Shown: one piece after another, positions 15,391 to 20,403 of the stretch
Layout: each line of letters begins with the position of its first letter
Numbering within the stretch: the first letter of the stretch is position 1
NCBI GenBank assembly: GCA_905181785.1
Contig: CAJIZC010000013.1
Location: 1 to 43,633 of the forward strand
Source of the DNA: an uncultured Candidatus Poseidoniales archaeon
Lineage (GTDB): Archaea; Thermoplasmatota; Poseidoniia; Poseidoniales; Poseidoniaceae
DNA length: 43,633 nt
Direction of reading: 5' to 3'
Position numbers and translations under genes: made by a program
The notes under the pieces: generated by a model
Told to the model about the DNA's origin: nothing
Seen by the model: the letters and a program-made list of their open reading frames with translations, nothing else
Database searches by the model: none

Positions 15391-16497
15391 ATGGAGCGCA
15401 TTCCGACCGGTCGCCCATCATGGAACCAAGAAATGCGCAGTGCCGCTATGGCCGTTTTGGATTCTAAACGTTGGGTCAAAGGCGCTCAAGGTCGCGCCTT
15501 CGGCGAAGCCTTCGCGTCCCACTGTGGGGCGCTGAGTGCGACGCCTTGTCAAAACGGGTCATCAGCGCTATGGGCGGCCCTTCGCATCGCTAACATTGGA
15601 CCTGGTGATGAGGTGATTGTTCCGTCCTACACGTTCATCTCGACCGCGACGTGCATCCTTTTGGTCGGCGCTACACCGGTGTTTGTCGATGTTGAACCGG
15701 ATTATTTCTGCCTCGATATGAACGCAGTTCAAAACGCAATCACCCCCGCCACAAAGGGCGTGATAGGCGTCCACCTTTTTGGCCAACCCTACGATCCAAA
15801 CCTCCTCAGACTCTGTCAACAACACGGGCTGACTTTGATTGAGGACGCCGCCCAAGCCCACGGAGCAACACAACAGTTTGCGGATGGCACAAAGCGAACC
15901 GCAGGGTCGATGGGTGACATCGGATGCTTCTCCTTTTTCCCTTCAAAAAACATGGCAGTGGGGGGAGAAGGTGGCATGCTCACCACGACCCTGCCAGCTT
16001 ACACTGCTAAGATTTCAGGCATCACAAATCACGGACGCAGCCCAGACTTGGAGGCGATGGAGTTGGGTAGCAATTTGCGCATGTCGGAAGTTTCGGCCGC
16101 GATTGGGCTGGAACAATTGAAGCAACTCGACCAGTGGGTGGAGCGCCGTCGCACAATCGCTGCCCTTTACATCGAAGCGATTGAACAAAACCCATTTCTC
16201 CAGCCACCGAAGGTGCGCCCAGGAGCAGAACATGCCTGGCACCAGTTCTGCGTTCATACACCTGCGCCCGAAGCGCTGGTGGCGCATTTTGACCGCCTCG
16301 GCATCGATGCACGGAGGTATTACACGGTGCCAATCCACGAACAAGCGGTTTTCACCCACCACCCGCAACATGACACTGCGCTGCAAGTAACCAACACCCT
16401 TGGCGCTACCCTCGTCGCAATCCCCGTCATGCATGAATTGACCCAGGGAGAAATCCAAAGGGTCGTCCAAGCGTTGAACGAATTCAAGGTTGCTTGA
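15391..16497 (+). CDS. DegT/DnrJ/EryC1/StrS-family PLP aminotransferase
   Basis: The product has 368 residues from the ATG at 15391; an upstream TTG would add a low-complexity extension without family character. The sugar aminotransferase pattern is complete: substrate-entry GRPSWNQEM, PSYTFISTA (79-87), EDAAQAHGA (151-159) with the PLP-pyridine Asp152, and SFFPSKNMAVGGEGGM with the Schiff-base Lys186. By family knowledge it transaminates a keto-sugar nucleotide from glutamate to build amino sugars for surface glycans. No glycosyltransferases are adjacent. A Gfo/Idh/MocA oxidoreductase, which could supply a keto-sugar, lies 4 kb downstream but with unrelated genes between. The end overlaps the convergent CYTH gene by 14 bases. 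Confidence 0.9.
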   Translation: MERIPTGRPSWNQEMRSAAMAVLDSKRWVKGAQGRAFGEAFASHCGALSATPCQNGSSALWAALRIANIGPGDEVIVPSYTFISTATCILLVGATPVFVDVEPDYFCLDMNAVQNAITPATKGVIGVHLFGQPYDPNLLRLCQQHGLTLIEDAAQAHGATQQFADGTKRTAGSMGDIGCFSFFPSKNMAVGGEGGMLTTTLPAYTAKISGITNHGRSPDLEAMELGSNLRMSEVSAAIGLEQLKQLDQWVERRRTIAALYIEAIEQNPFLQPPKVRPGAEHAWHQFCVHTPAPEALVAHFDRLGIDARRYYTVPIHEQAVFTHHPQHDTALQVTNTLGATLVAIPVMHELTQGEIQRVVQALNEFKVA

Positions 16498-17077
16498 CGG
16501 GGCGTCCTGCATGTGCTAACTGAGCGTTGGACCAACTATGATCTCCGGTGATCTCTAGGCCAAGCCAAGGGGGCAATTCTACCGGGTGGTCTTCTTCAGG
16601 CAACTCAACTTCGGCAAGAATTAATCCAGCAAGTTCACCTTCAAACTCATCGACTTCCCAAAGCAGCCCGTCAGCGCCACGCCATTCGTACCTGCGCTTC
16701 GATACTGAAGGATAAGCACCAGTTGCTGCAATTTGATGACCAAGAGCCAACGGCAATCCCCATTCAAGTTCATGGGCGCTGGCGTTGGTGCGGCGGCCCT
16801 TGAGGGTGAACACGGCCCGTTCATCAACAAGGCGCATGCGTGCAATCCAATCTGCTTCGGTTTGAAAGAGTTCCAATTCAGATTCCGCCATTTTTTGGAA
16901 CCGTTTCACGCCCATGTATGACAACCAACCCTCGCTTTGGAGCACTTCATTTGAATGAAGGTAAAATTGGGAGATTTGGCTGGAACCTTCGCCTTCTCGC
17001 CACGGGTGCGTCTCTTGTACGTTGACAAAAAATCGGCGCTCGATTTCGATGTGGCTCTTCCTTGCGCCGAACCCCAT
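16484..17077 (-). CDS. CYTH-domain protein (triphosphate tunnel family)
   Basis: The product has 197 residues. The N-terminal HIEIERRFFV is the CYTH signature ExExK with Arg15 in place of Lys (Glu11, Glu13). Further tunnel strands follow in order: RMRLVDERAVFTLKGR, HELEWGL, KRRYEWRG, and WEVDEFEGELAGLILAEVELP, all alternating charged residues as in triphosphate-binding tunnel enzymes. Family members are class IV adenylate cyclases, thiamine triphosphatases and inorganic triphosphatases that bind triphosphate with a divalent metal. Which reaction this one does is not decidable; the close 'adenylate cyclase-like' archaeal relatives are mostly uncharacterised. It is soluble and monocistronic. 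Confidence 0.85.
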   Translation of the reverse strand: MGFGARKSHIEIERRFFVNVQETHPWREGEGSSQISQFYLHSNEVLQSEGWLSYMGVKRFQKMAESELELFQTEADWIARMRLVDERAVFTLKGRRTNASAHELEWGLPLALGHQIAATGAYPSVSKRRYEWRGADGLLWEVDEFEGELAGLILAEVELPEEDHPVELPPWLGLEITGDHSWSNAQLAHAGRPVKQP

Positions 17078-17190: not shown

Positions 17191-17219
17191 ATTTACCAAC
17201 TTATTGATATGCACCCCTC
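17191..17219 (+). promoter_or_regulatory. Promoter-proximal element, copy 1 (before the membrane-tethered regulator)
   Basis: The element consists of ATTTACCAAC, two variable bases, ATTGATA, then TGCACCCCT. It begins 43 bases before the ATG at 17234. The ATTGATA part sits at TATA-box distance for a leaderless or very short-leader transcript. The same three blocks recur at 18067-18099 before the beta-propeller gene. Confidence 0.7.
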
Positions 17220-17233
17220 TTAGATTCACAGCG

Positions 17234-18061
17234 ATGAAAGGGGTCTATCTTGTTCGCTTCCTGGCCGCCATGGCTTTATTCTCAATCTGCAGCGGGGCTG
17301 TCCTTTTTGAGAAAGGGGTCGCTCTTAGCGAACCTGATGCACTGGCCGGGGACGAAGGAGAGGGCTTTACCACAGATTCAGACACACTCGAAACAGAGGC
17401 CGTTGAGGAGCCACTCAACGCCGAACCCGAACAACATACGCCATCCGAACAGGACAACCAGTTACCGAATATTCTCTTTGGATTTGGAGGGGGTATTTTC
17501 TCTTCGATGATGTTTGGCTCTCTCTTCTTTGAATTCATACGAATTGTATTTTTCATGTCCTTTCTCACCCCGCTCATAGCAAAAAGAGAATCGGGGGAGG
17601 AGCGAACGGCCGGCCGCATCTTGGGATATGTGGAAGGAAATGCAGGAATTCACTTTTCAGCGTTAAGGGATGGTTTGGGTTTGGCAAACGGGGTGACAGC
17701 ATACCACCTGCAGATTCTTGAAAAAGAGGGATCGATTGTTTCTTGGCGAGATGGAAAGTGGAGAAGGTATGTTGTTTCAACCCTTTCTCCTGAAGAAATA
17801 GACTCAATCCCCCACCCCCTCGTCGGGACCCGACTAGCGATTTTAGAAATTTTACAGCAATCCAAAACCCTTGGTTTGACCGGCAAGGAAATACAGGAAA
17901 AATTATCGATTTCACGCCAATTGTGTTCCCATCATATGGACGCCTTGCGTCGAGCCGATTTTGTACAAAAGGCGAATTCGAAGAGAAAAGCTCCGTGGCT
18001 GCTCTCCGAGAACGGCACGGCGCAGCTCACCTTACTCGGAAAAAAAATTGCGACGTTGTAA
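17234..18061 (+). CDS. Membrane-tethered transcriptional regulator with two winged-helix domains
   Basis: The product has 275 residues. It has an N-terminal hydrophobic segment (5-25), an acidic, probably external stretch (32-78), a second hydrophobic segment (about 79-115) and then two cytosolic winged-helix domains: about 125-183 (GNAGIHFSALRDGLGLANGV, then YHLQILEKEGSI) and about 197-270 (LGLTGKEIQEKLSISRQLCS, then HHMDALRRADFV). The layout fits archaeal ArsR/MarR-like regulators held at the membrane. The frame is open from 16955, but the upstream part runs antisense to the CYTH gene, and the ATG at 17234 lies at the right distance from the promoter element. The acidic loop could sense something outside. 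The shared element before the adjacent propeller gene suggests it controls itself and that gene. Confidence 0.82.
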   Translation: MKGVYLVRFLAAMALFSICSGAVLFEKGVALSEPDALAGDEGEGFTTDSDTLETEAVEEPLNAEPEQHTPSEQDNQLPNILFGFGGGIFSSMMFGSLFFEFIRIVFFMSFLTPLIAKRESGEERTAGRILGYVEGNAGIHFSALRDGLGLANGVTAYHLQILEKEGSIVSWRDGKWRRYVVSTLSPEEIDSIPHPLVGTRLAILEILQQSKTLGLTGKEIQEKLSISRQLCSHHMDALRRADFVQKANSKRKAPWLLSENGTAQLTLLGKKIATL

Positions 18062-18066
18062 AATCA

Positions 18067-18099
18067 ATTTACCAACCCATTGATACCAAGTGCACCCCT
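18067..18099 (+). promoter_or_regulatory. Promoter-proximal element, copy 2 (before the beta-propeller lipoprotein)
   Basis: This copy has the same ordered blocks as 17191-17219: ATTTACCAAC, two bases, ATTGATA, then TGCACCCCT, with about five extra bases before the last block. ATTTACCAAC begins 42 bases before the ATG at 18109, almost the same distance as in copy 1. A second ACCAA follows ATTGAT here. Confidence 0.7.
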
Positions 18100-18108
18100 A
18101 GTGGTGCC

Positions 18109-20403
18109 ATGAAGGCAGAGAAAGTTGTCGCAATTGGCGTTCTTACATTGATGCTGATGTCCGGATGTTTGGGCGCAGTGGACCCGGCAATCGAAAATCC
18201 AACCGTTGAGCTTCCCGAAGATTGGAACACAACCGTTGCTCGCACGACTTCGAGTCCACAATTGAATCAGTTTTCTGATTGCGACGAACTAGAGACGGCC
18301 CTCAAACTTTCGATTGAAGAAGAGGCCCGAACCCAAATCCTGCAAGCCATCGAAGAGCAGTATTCCTACGGCGGCATTTGGATGGAAGACGACATGGCAT
18401 TGGCAGAATCGGCGGATGGTGGCAGTTCCACCCCCACGGCAACACCAAAACGGATCGAAGGGACAGACTTTTCTGGAACAAACAATCAAGAGCAAGGGGT
18501 CGATGAAGCAGATTTTGTCAAAACCGACGGCTACAACATCTACTTCCTCAACGGGAAAAACCTCGTTATATTCGGCGTTCCTGAATTTGGAGAACTGACC
18601 CTTCTTTCCACCACGGCCATCCAAGGGAATCCAACGGCTATGATGCTCGATGGCGATCGCCTGGTTGTCATTTCCTCCGTTTCGACCTGGTCGATCAACA
18701 GCAACGACCCACTCGCTGCAGAACTTGGTTGGGACGACGCTCAAAACACATATCGAACTTCATCACTGACCAAGTTCTCTGTCATTGACGTGTCAAACCG
18801 TTCAGCCCCAACAATGGCCAAAGAGCTCTTCTTAGAGGGCAGTTACATGACCGCCCGTGAAGTCAACGGGACCGTTCGCACTGTGACTCACGCTTGGATG
18901 AACATTCCAGGTCTTCAAACGTGGCTTGACCTTCCAACGGGCTATTGGAGCCTTGATTACGACGACCCATTGCGCCTCGAACTTCGTGAGAAAGTTGGCT
19001 ATCAAACCATTCTCGAGAACCAAATGACGTTGTCAAAACTCGCTCTTGTTGATATCTTACCAAAGGTGTACGAGCGGGTTGACGGAGCGCTCACAATCCA
19101 CACCATGGACGAAGATGCATGCGCCGATTTCGCTGCACCAGGAGACGGCTTGAACAGAGGCTTCAACAGCATCTTCACCTTTGATTTGAACGACGAGAAC
19201 TTTGCCTTCCAGGCCGATCACATCGTCGGAAACTACCCCATGGTTTACGCCTCTGAAGACGTGCTTGTGCTGACAGAAAACGCCTGGGACTGGTGGTGGT
19301 TCTGGGGCAACGACAACATGGATGAAGCCACAAACATTCACACATTCGACATCTCAAATCCCGGCGACACCGTCTACACGGGATCGGGGCGGGTCAACGG
19401 AACAATTCTGAATCAATTTTCAATTTCTGAACACCAGGGCGTCCTGCGCATCGCAGCAACCTCGGGCCAATGGGCACGGTGGTGGATGGAAAACCCCGAG
19501 CCAATGAGCTCGAGCGTTATCGCACTCGAGAGAGGTGTTGATGTGGAGACCGATCAACAGGTGTTGGTCGAAGTGGGTCGCGTCGACAACATCGCTCCCG
19601 AAGAACGAATTTGGAGCGCACGATTCGATGGCGATCGCTGTTACCTCGTCACCTTCCGCCAAATCGACCCGTTGTGGGTCATCGATATGTCAGATGAAAC
19701 CAACCCAACCATACTCGGGGAACTTGAAATCCCCGGTGTCTCGACCTACATCCACCCACTCTCACGCGATCACCTGCTGACCATTGGCATGGGCCCGGGT
19801 GAAGACGGACTCGGACTTGATTGGTCAAACACCCGCTTGTCGTTGTTCAACATCAGCGATCCATCCACTCCTGCGGTTGACGATGTCCTTTCGCTCACCC
19901 CTGTCGCGGATTCAAATAATTCAGGATGGACGTGGTCCTACTCTGAGGCATCATATGAGCACAAGGCCTTCCAATACTGGGCGCCCAAGGGGTTGCTTGC
20001 CGTGCCTCTTTCAACCTACAAGTATGACAGTTGGTATGATGGATATACATACGTCAGCAAACTCATGATTGTCAATGTTTCAGAAGAGACTGGAACGATG
20101 TCGGTGCACGGGGAAGTCAACCACTCAATGTTCTACAATGGCAACGACCGGACATCCTACTACGGAAACCATGACATTCGCCGCTCAATTTTCATGGGCG
20201 ATTTCATCTATGCCATTTCCGCTCAAGGTGTGACGGCCACCAACCTCACAACGATGGAACGTTCATCTTCAATCGAACTGACATATGAGGAACAGTGCTT
20301 CTATTGCGAAGAGGAAGGCTCGGTTGAGACAGAAGGCGAAGATCGGCCAGTTTCTGACTCAGGAACGCCAGCAGAGAGTGAAACTTCTTCTGAATCCAAT
20401 TGA
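18109..20403 (+). CDS. Secreted beta-propeller domain lipoprotein (PF09826-like)
   Basis: The product has 764 residues from the ATG at 18109. The signal peptide ends in lipobox LMSGC (Cys20), so it is anchored outside the membrane. The diagnostic segment NNQEQGVDEADFVKTDGYNI, followed by a FLNGKNLVIFGV strand, is the start of the secreted 'beta propeller domain' family. Repeated LVVISS, FSVIDVSNRS, HTFDISNPGD, WVIDMSDETNP and LSLFNISDPS strands form the later blades. It ends in a Glu/Ser/Thr-rich tail after a CFYCEEE cysteine pair. Ligand and function are unknown. The frame is open from 17923, but that would overlap the regulator gene. Expression is probably tied to the preceding regulator through the shared upstream element. 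Confidence 0.9.
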   Translation: MKAEKVVAIGVLTLMLMSGCLGAVDPAIENPTVELPEDWNTTVARTTSSPQLNQFSDCDELETALKLSIEEEARTQILQAIEEQYSYGGIWMEDDMALAESADGGSSTPTATPKRIEGTDFSGTNNQEQGVDEADFVKTDGYNIYFLNGKNLVIFGVPEFGELTLLSTTAIQGNPTAMMLDGDRLVVISSVSTWSINSNDPLAAELGWDDAQNTYRTSSLTKFSVIDVSNRSAPTMAKELFLEGSYMTAREVNGTVRTVTHAWMNIPGLQTWLDLPTGYWSLDYDDPLRLELREKVGYQTILENQMTLSKLALVDILPKVYERVDGALTIHTMDEDACADFAAPGDGLNRGFNSIFTFDLNDENFAFQADHIVGNYPMVYASEDVLVLTENAWDWWWFWGNDNMDEATNIHTFDISNPGDTVYTGSGRVNGTILNQFSISEHQGVLRIAATSGQWARWWMENPEPMSSSVIALERGVDVETDQQVLVEVGRVDNIAPEERIWSARFDGDRCYLVTFRQIDPLWVIDMSDETNPTILGELEIPGVSTYIHPLSRDHLLTIGMGPGEDGLGLDWSNTRLSLFNISDPSTPAVDDVLSLTPVADSNNSGWTWSYSEASYEHKAFQYWAPKGLLAVPLSTYKYDSWYDGYTYVSKLMIVNVSEETGTMSVHGEVNHSMFYNGNDRTSYYGNHDIRRSIFMGDFIYAISAQGVTATNLTTMERSSSIELTYEEQCFYCEEEGSVETEGEDRPVSDSGTPAESETSSESN

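Follow-up and report, generated by a model that had tools for sequence, protein, structure and literature searches.

Transmembrane transcription regulators (TTRs), which are defined by a predicted transmembrane region together with a predicted DNA-binding domain, are described as widespread (PMC10269533), and in Sulfolobus acidocaldarius ArnR and ArnR1 are described as membrane-bound one-component helix-turn-helix (HTH) regulators that act on the promoters of surface-structure genes through defined boxes (PMC6396743). The available main text of the former paper contains no mention of Poseidonial or Thermoplasmat. The Poseidoniales are reported to outnumber all other planktonic archaea in ocean surface waters and to have no cultured representatives (PMC6461757); our literature searches found no paper joining Poseidoniales, transcription factor and regulon, and nothing on the regulator described here, CsmR (PMC13286277) being, from its description, a different, Lrp-type regulator. 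We analyzed a stretch of 43,633 nucleotides (nt) from an uncultured Candidatus Poseidoniales (Marine Group II) archaeon (contig CAJIZC010000013.1 of assembly GCA_905181785.1; hereafter the window), in which the adjacent genes for a predicted membrane-tethered regulator and a predicted beta-propeller lipoprotein share an upstream element. This element is very probably the operator of the adjacent one-component regulator, which, most likely by activation, would control its own gene, the propeller gene and those of a small number of other exported proteins.

By prediction, the window regulator has both of the features that define TTRs, and compared with the survey of that group, as described, an inferred operator and regulon are added here. 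It is like ArnR in being an archaeal membrane-bound one-component regulator with surface genes as candidate targets and with defined promoter boxes. In ArnR, however, as described, the HTH domain is N-terminal and the two transmembrane helices are C-terminal, with a putative HAMP and sensor domain present as well (PMC6396743), whereas in the window regulator the predicted transmembrane helices are N-terminal and two winged helices are C-terminal, with no HAMP among the Pfam matches. With this reversed domain order and without HAMP the protein falls outside the ArnR family, and its target set and operator differ from those described for ArnR.

A first-pass annotation of this DNA had proposed a two-winged-helix protein with an acidic loop between membrane helices, and both parts of that description held. 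Pfam places PF24266 (HTH_HVO_0163_N) at residues 126-188 (E 5.6e-14; 52.4 bits against a gathering cut-off of 31) and HTH_24 at residues 199-249 (E 1.5e-12). Before them are predicted a hydrophobic helix at about residues 2-27, an acidic loop at about 30-76 and a second hydrophobic stretch within about 77-115. Both hydrophobic stretches reach a 19-residue Kyte-Doolittle mean of at least 1.6, and the 47 residues between them include 15 aspartates or glutamates and no lysine or arginine (10-22 and 0-3, respectively, in 21 aligned orthologues). The longest open reading frame (ORF) has an upstream ATG at 16955; ATG 17234 was favored as the regulator start because M1 is invariant among 21 aligned regulators. 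The match to the NCBIfam ArsR/SmtB metalloregulator family NF033788 (49.5 bits) is under the curated cut-off of 55, and a PDB sequence search gave two weak matches, to an ArsR-family protein and a zinc-transport regulator. Foldseek returned mostly winged-helix regulators, many of them titled ArsR/SmtB/MarR repressors, but since the structure model was of low confidence and query coverage was low, this supports only the designation winged helix. For PF24266 proteins no function was found in the literature, where the one paper found to name HVO_0163 is presented as an acetylome study. The propeller protein covers the whole PF09826 (Beta_propel) profile (residues 121-716; 398.7 bits against a gathering cut-off of 22.4), and its signal-like N terminus ends in LMSGC, read by eye in the translation as a lipobox. 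No NCBIfam family was found for it; what sets it apart from other PF09826 proteins is its tie to a regulator through a common promoter element.

The three blocks that the first-pass annotation had reported lie exactly where it placed them (ATTTACCAAC at 17191 and 18067, ATTGATA at 17203 and 18079, TGCACCCCT at 17210 and 18091). ATTTACCAAC starts 43 nt ahead of the regulator ATG (17234) and 42 nt ahead of the propeller ATG (18109), and ATTGATA lies at TATA distance. The match reaches further upstream than first noted, TTGTCAAATCCATTTACCAACTTATTGATA and TTGTAAAATCAATTTACCAACCCATTGATA being identical at 26 of 30 positions; 0.0045 such pairs would be expected anywhere in the window, and plain base shuffles of the 60-nt leaders, compared in register, reached a maximum of 22 identities in 2000 trials. 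The element was redefined as TGT[AC]AAATCAnnnnACCAA followed by TTnATA (Table 1). Copy 2 had been placed just after the regulator stop codon, but from 18057 onward it overlaps the last codon and the TAA (18059-18061) and so is not wholly 3' of the stop. In the genome bin from which the window comes (1.66 Mb, 31 contigs, 79.75% completeness), an exact search for all three blocks with a second gap of N{1,12} found only copy 2, the zero spacing of copy 1 being outside that pattern, and ACCAACnnATTGATA alone gave two exact matches, both in the window, with 26 others carrying 2-3 mismatches, a few of whose contexts were inspected.

Relatives of the regulator were collected with an alignment query, which found 121, of which 80 were kept (a single-sequence contig scan found 0). 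These 80 named loci were chosen because they contain the regulator; each covers at most about 13 kb around it rather than a whole genome. Where relatives are named below phylum level, the names are Poseidoniales, Poseidoniaceae, Thalassarchaeaceae or those of members of these groups, and the others are titled Euryarchaeota or Marine Group II; two genome families, f1 and f2, were taken as Poseidoniaceae and Thalassarchaeaceae, respectively. A pattern search of the loci gave 158 matches on both strands, 137 of which have, 50-54 nt downstream, an ATG that opens at least 60 codons. Behind these 137 sites stand 72 regulator, 62 propeller and 3 dockerin genes; the motif script had sorted them into 71 regulators, 60 propellers, 3 dockerin-like genes and 3 others, and the last three were assigned from their translations (L290 and L312, largely masked, as propellers and L297 as a regulator). 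A site scoring at least 17.7 is present in each of the 66 regulators whose 5' end is complete, some of which overlap the training sites, and 62 of them also have an ATG at 49-56 nt; the other four have the site (20.1-20.6) and no ATG at that distance. Score and distance are both passed by 60 of the 62 propellers; of the other two, one is a masked stretch and one scores 10.5. The element precedes both orthologues in two families, which is the conservation upstream of orthologous pairs that the first-pass annotation had set as a check. In 45 loci the propeller follows the regulator on the same strand at no more than 600 nt; in 12 it lies downstream with a larger gap and in 5 divergently, and 18 stretches contain no propeller. 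Since the divergent loci keep both sites (the propeller site in 5/5, the regulator site in 3/3 whose regulator 5' end was scored), the site pair is not a by-product of one local duplication.

For the motif alignment, repeated sites and 11 loci (10 regulator-free propeller promoters and L055) were removed, leaving 35 sites, of which 34 were aligned. Positions 2-3 (GT), 7 (A), 15-18 (ACCA) and 25 (T) are invariant in the 35 distinct sites, with TGT[AC]AAA[TC]CA before the ACCA core and TTnATA after it. Nearly all information in 90 non-redundant sites from the 80 loci lies in columns -1 to 31; the search pattern itself dictated some of the columns, which are therefore invariant by construction. 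Column 43, about 10 nt before the ATG, is T in 74% of these 90 sites (L269-L348), a resemblance, as we take it, to the archaeal proximal promoter element. The third block of the first-pass annotation, TGCACCCCT, was rejected as a conserved block: it follows ATTGATA at 0 nt in copy 1 and at 5 nt in copy 2, and it follows none of the 142 plus-strand sites found by regular expression in the named loci.

Presence of the element before many unrelated genes, as a general core promoter, would have counted against the proposal as first made, and this was not observed. Among 505 control ORFs, chosen mechanically from the window and the 80 loci and begun at their first ATG, four score at least 13.4 at the fixed offset, and all four are of the regulon type (three dockerin-family genes and the masked L312 gene, taken for a propeller); none of the remaining controls reaches 10 with a 19-column matrix at the fixed offset. 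The element is not a general promoter.

The orthologue of the small regulator was not found in many genomes by protein and profile searches, most matches there being a much longer paralogue. A matrix made from 12 f2 regulator sites only was applied to propeller promoters, so that for f1 the training set contained neither the family nor the gene, and for f2 it lacked only the gene; 43 of the 49 genomes with a propeller match were scored, the rest being without a propeller 5' end. Scores of at least 13.4, a threshold picked after the scores were seen, occur in 27/27 regulator-bearing genomes (10 f1 and 17 f2) versus 1/16 regulator-free ones, that is, in 10/10 versus 1/11 in f1 (Mann-Whitney p 0.0002) and in 17/17 versus 0/5 in f2 (Mann-Whitney p 0.0005). 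In a quick propeller tree of 41 of the 43 rows (G007 and G055 were left out as fragments) the regulator changes state seven times. Six independent pairs at the threshold of 13.4 gave five or six in agreement and none opposed (median p 0.031, range to 0.0625), and at a threshold of 10 four or five agree, the rest are ties and none oppose (p 0.0625-0.125). The CYTH neighbor lies directly beside the propeller, with the regulator missing, in six of ten regulator-free f1 loci (G001, G013, G017, G022, G024 and G025), and was not found within the stretch examined in the other four (G004, G006, G008 and G033); in G013 the CYTH and DegT proteins are 44% and 62% identical to those of the window. The f2 regulator-free genomes G037, G054 and G056 have no clear propeller site. 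In the stretches examined, then, a specific and conserved element lies at a fixed distance from the ATG and is lost together with the regulator. In G050 (L360), where the small regulator was not found, the propeller matches in two pieces in different frames and again on a second contig (C58, C37).

The element common to the regulator and the PF09826 propeller was borne out, while the set of genes with a site appears wider than the two that had been proposed. The model built from the 34 aligned sites (R1) was searched in 59 genomes and 37 further places were read: 10 before lectin-like proteins, 6 before proteins of choice-of-anchor V type, 5 before the dockerin family (f2), 1 before a dockerin-type gene at a contig end, 1 before the G027 regulator at a contig end, 2 before dehydrogenase-like genes and 12 before no convincing gene. 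The best-scoring of these sites lie 52-54 nt before the ATG, and export of the products was judged by eye from hydrophobic N termini. The lectin-like target of the window's own genome (G000 C4:17469) is a protein of 1226 amino acids (aa) with C-type lectin and PPC domains; a choice-of-anchor V type protein of 844 aa reached 84.5 bits against an NCBIfam cut-off of 42, and one dockerin-family protein matched Dockerin_1 at 78.4 bits. For Fisher tests of co-occurrence a genome counted as regulator-free only if its propeller locus is assembled and has no regulator, which dropped 11/19 for the lectin and 10/18 for choice-of-anchor V. Choice-of-anchor V sites of at least 13.4 occur in 5/10 regulator-bearing versus 0/8 regulator-free genomes (p 0.036), and of at least 10 in 7/10 versus 0/8 (p 0.004), only 28 f1 loci having been scored; with all scored genomes kept, p is 0.008. 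This co-occurrence supports choice-of-anchor V as a target.

A second, larger membrane regulator family was also seen (an 883-aa frame at G000:C19:11920-12606; L371, L373, L379 and L388). It is present in 30 of 35 f1 genomes, in frames of 343-920 aa, mostly 830-920, and has PF24266 and a winged helix at the C terminus, preceded by a large part that is probably exterior and has a BsuPI-like match slightly under the cut-off. Nine genomes have this regulator on one contig with a choice-of-anchor V paralogue, at a distance of 5-9 kb. Weak sites precede choice-of-anchor V paralogues in three genomes in which the small regulator was not found (L172 in G034, G021 C2:302850 and G025 C39:60459); these sites may point to a cross-acting paralogue.

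The ten regulator-free f1 propeller promoters divide the element in two: TGT[AC]AAA is kept in 0/10, whereas ACC is kept in 10/10 (ACCAA in 6/10) and TTGATA in 9/10. Because the first part is dropped and the second kept, in f1 the upstream half depends on the regulator, and the downstream one probably belongs to the core promoter. That the whole element is a general Poseidoniales core promoter, a B recognition element (BRE) plus TATA box common to many leaderless genes, is nevertheless very improbable. The half that survives regulator loss speaks for it, as do TTnATA, which fits the TATA box of leaderless transcripts, and a small peak of TTTATA among control ORFs, which have it 4 times at 28 nt before the ATG where the per-position baseline is 0.03; the available text of PMC5069720 yielded no transcription start site data for these genes. 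For the TGTMAAATCA half, however, this explanation is largely refuted by the controls, in which no ORF outside the proposed regulon reaches 10, and by the own genome, where R1 has only four matches at E<=1, three of them before target genes and the fourth without an ATG at 45-59 nt. Somewhat less improbable, yet still hard to favor, is binding by another factor, for example the larger paralogue with its same double winged helix, the small regulator being just another target. The paralogue is widespread in f1, and the lectin site of G025 and the weak choice-of-anchor V paralogue sites persist where the small regulator was not found, but the propeller site has been lost where the paralogue is kept and the small regulator is missing (e.g. 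G001, G004, G006, G017, G024, G025 and G033).

If the small regulator is the binding factor, its two cytosolic winged helices would bind the two halves of the asymmetric TGT[AC]AAATCAnnnnACCAA site just upstream of the TATA-like TTnATA in leaderless-type promoters, and recruitment of TATA-binding protein (TBP) and transcription factor B (TFB) would be helped once the membrane or exterior part has perceived a cue, through the exterior loop or a partner. The regulator would in this way control its own gene, the propeller lipoprotein and the few other exported proteins. Direct binding, activation and a signal are what we infer from these patterns, along with autoregulation, since the site precedes the regulator's own gene. 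On balance, binding next to the TATA box seems to activate. The same operator might instead serve a repressor, which would block TFB/TBP or RNA polymerase until an envelope signal relieved it; this we think rather unlikely. ArsR/MarR-like winged helices are often repressors, many Foldseek neighbors are titled as such, and ACCAA would touch the BRE position, but the regulator-dependent half lies upstream of BRE/TATA, the usual place of archaeal activators, and the core is the part that survives regulator loss in f1.

Several observations weigh against the operator reading as a whole. Under the first-ATG rule only 41/75 regulators and 35/57 propellers reach 13.4, and because the same mechanical start rule applies, the controls too were seen at reduced sensitivity. 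The AlphaFold model has long helices at residues 2-31 and 77-129 with a mean pLDDT of 66.7, which leaves the regulator topology a prediction. G022 has no regulator and yet a propeller promoter scoring 19.8, and regulator-free G047, at 12.6, is just under the cut and becomes positive at a threshold of 10. As the genomes are incomplete bins, the absences of the regulator are partly uncertain. Lectin sites do not track the regulator (6/11 versus 2/8, Fisher p 0.35; p 0.20 with all 30 scored genomes kept, 2 of 32 matches, G034 and G018, being unscored), and co-occurrence gives no support to the lectin gene as a regulator-dependent target. Lectin sites also occur in excluded genomes: in G021 (18.4), and in G019, G009 and G026, but in G019 and G009 the contig ends inside the propeller next to the expected place of the regulator, and in G026 neither gene was found. 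G025, which has a lectin site scoring 18.6 and no regulator, is a genuine counterexample. In G028 and G030 (L155 and L168) a propeller-like promoter, ACCAATTCCTTCATATC, precedes a gene whose product looks by eye like a nucleotide-sugar dehydrogenase and shows no sign of export.

Table 1. Positions in the window of the two element copies and of the genes around them
Feature	Position	Strand	Remarks
Putative operator copy 1, TGTCAAATCCATTTACCAA	17181..17199	+	Starts 53 nt before regulator ATG; R1 match E 6.6e-6 (own genome)
ATTGATA, TATA-position block, copy 1	17203..17209	+	31 to 25 nt before ATG
Membrane-tethered regulator (predicted), 275 aa	17234..18061	+	ORF, Pfam, alignment, structure model
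Putative operator copy 2, TGTAAAATCAATTTACCAA	18057..18075	+	Starts 52 nt before propeller ATG; overlaps regulator stop codon; R1 match E 3.0e-6 (own genome)
ATTGATA, TATA-position block, copy 2	18079..18085	+	30 to 24 nt before ATG
Predicted lipoprotein, PF09826 beta-propeller domain, 764 aa	18109..20403	+	ORF, Pfam
CYTH-domain gene, divergent flank	16484..17077	-	ORF, Pfam

The first-pass annotation had also suggested the propeller as ligand binder. That it is the regulator's partner is a guess, and a doubtful one. A split sensor is conceivable because the large paralogue has a probably exterior part before the same double winged helix. More speculative still, the small regulator, whose exterior would be the short acidic loop, might have the propeller lipoprotein as its split-off sensor and control both this sensor and adhesin-like exported proteins in a surface-sensing feedback loop, with the large paralogue as the unsplit form; this tentative picture we regard as unlikely. 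With a defined operator, a candidate regulator and a target set, gene control in this order becomes testable with purified proteins and metatranscriptomes. If true, the operator reading would add to ArnR another archaeal regulator that acts on surface genes from the membrane, and it hints at how uncultured ocean archaea may adjust their surface, the signal probably being read by a membrane-anchored regulator.

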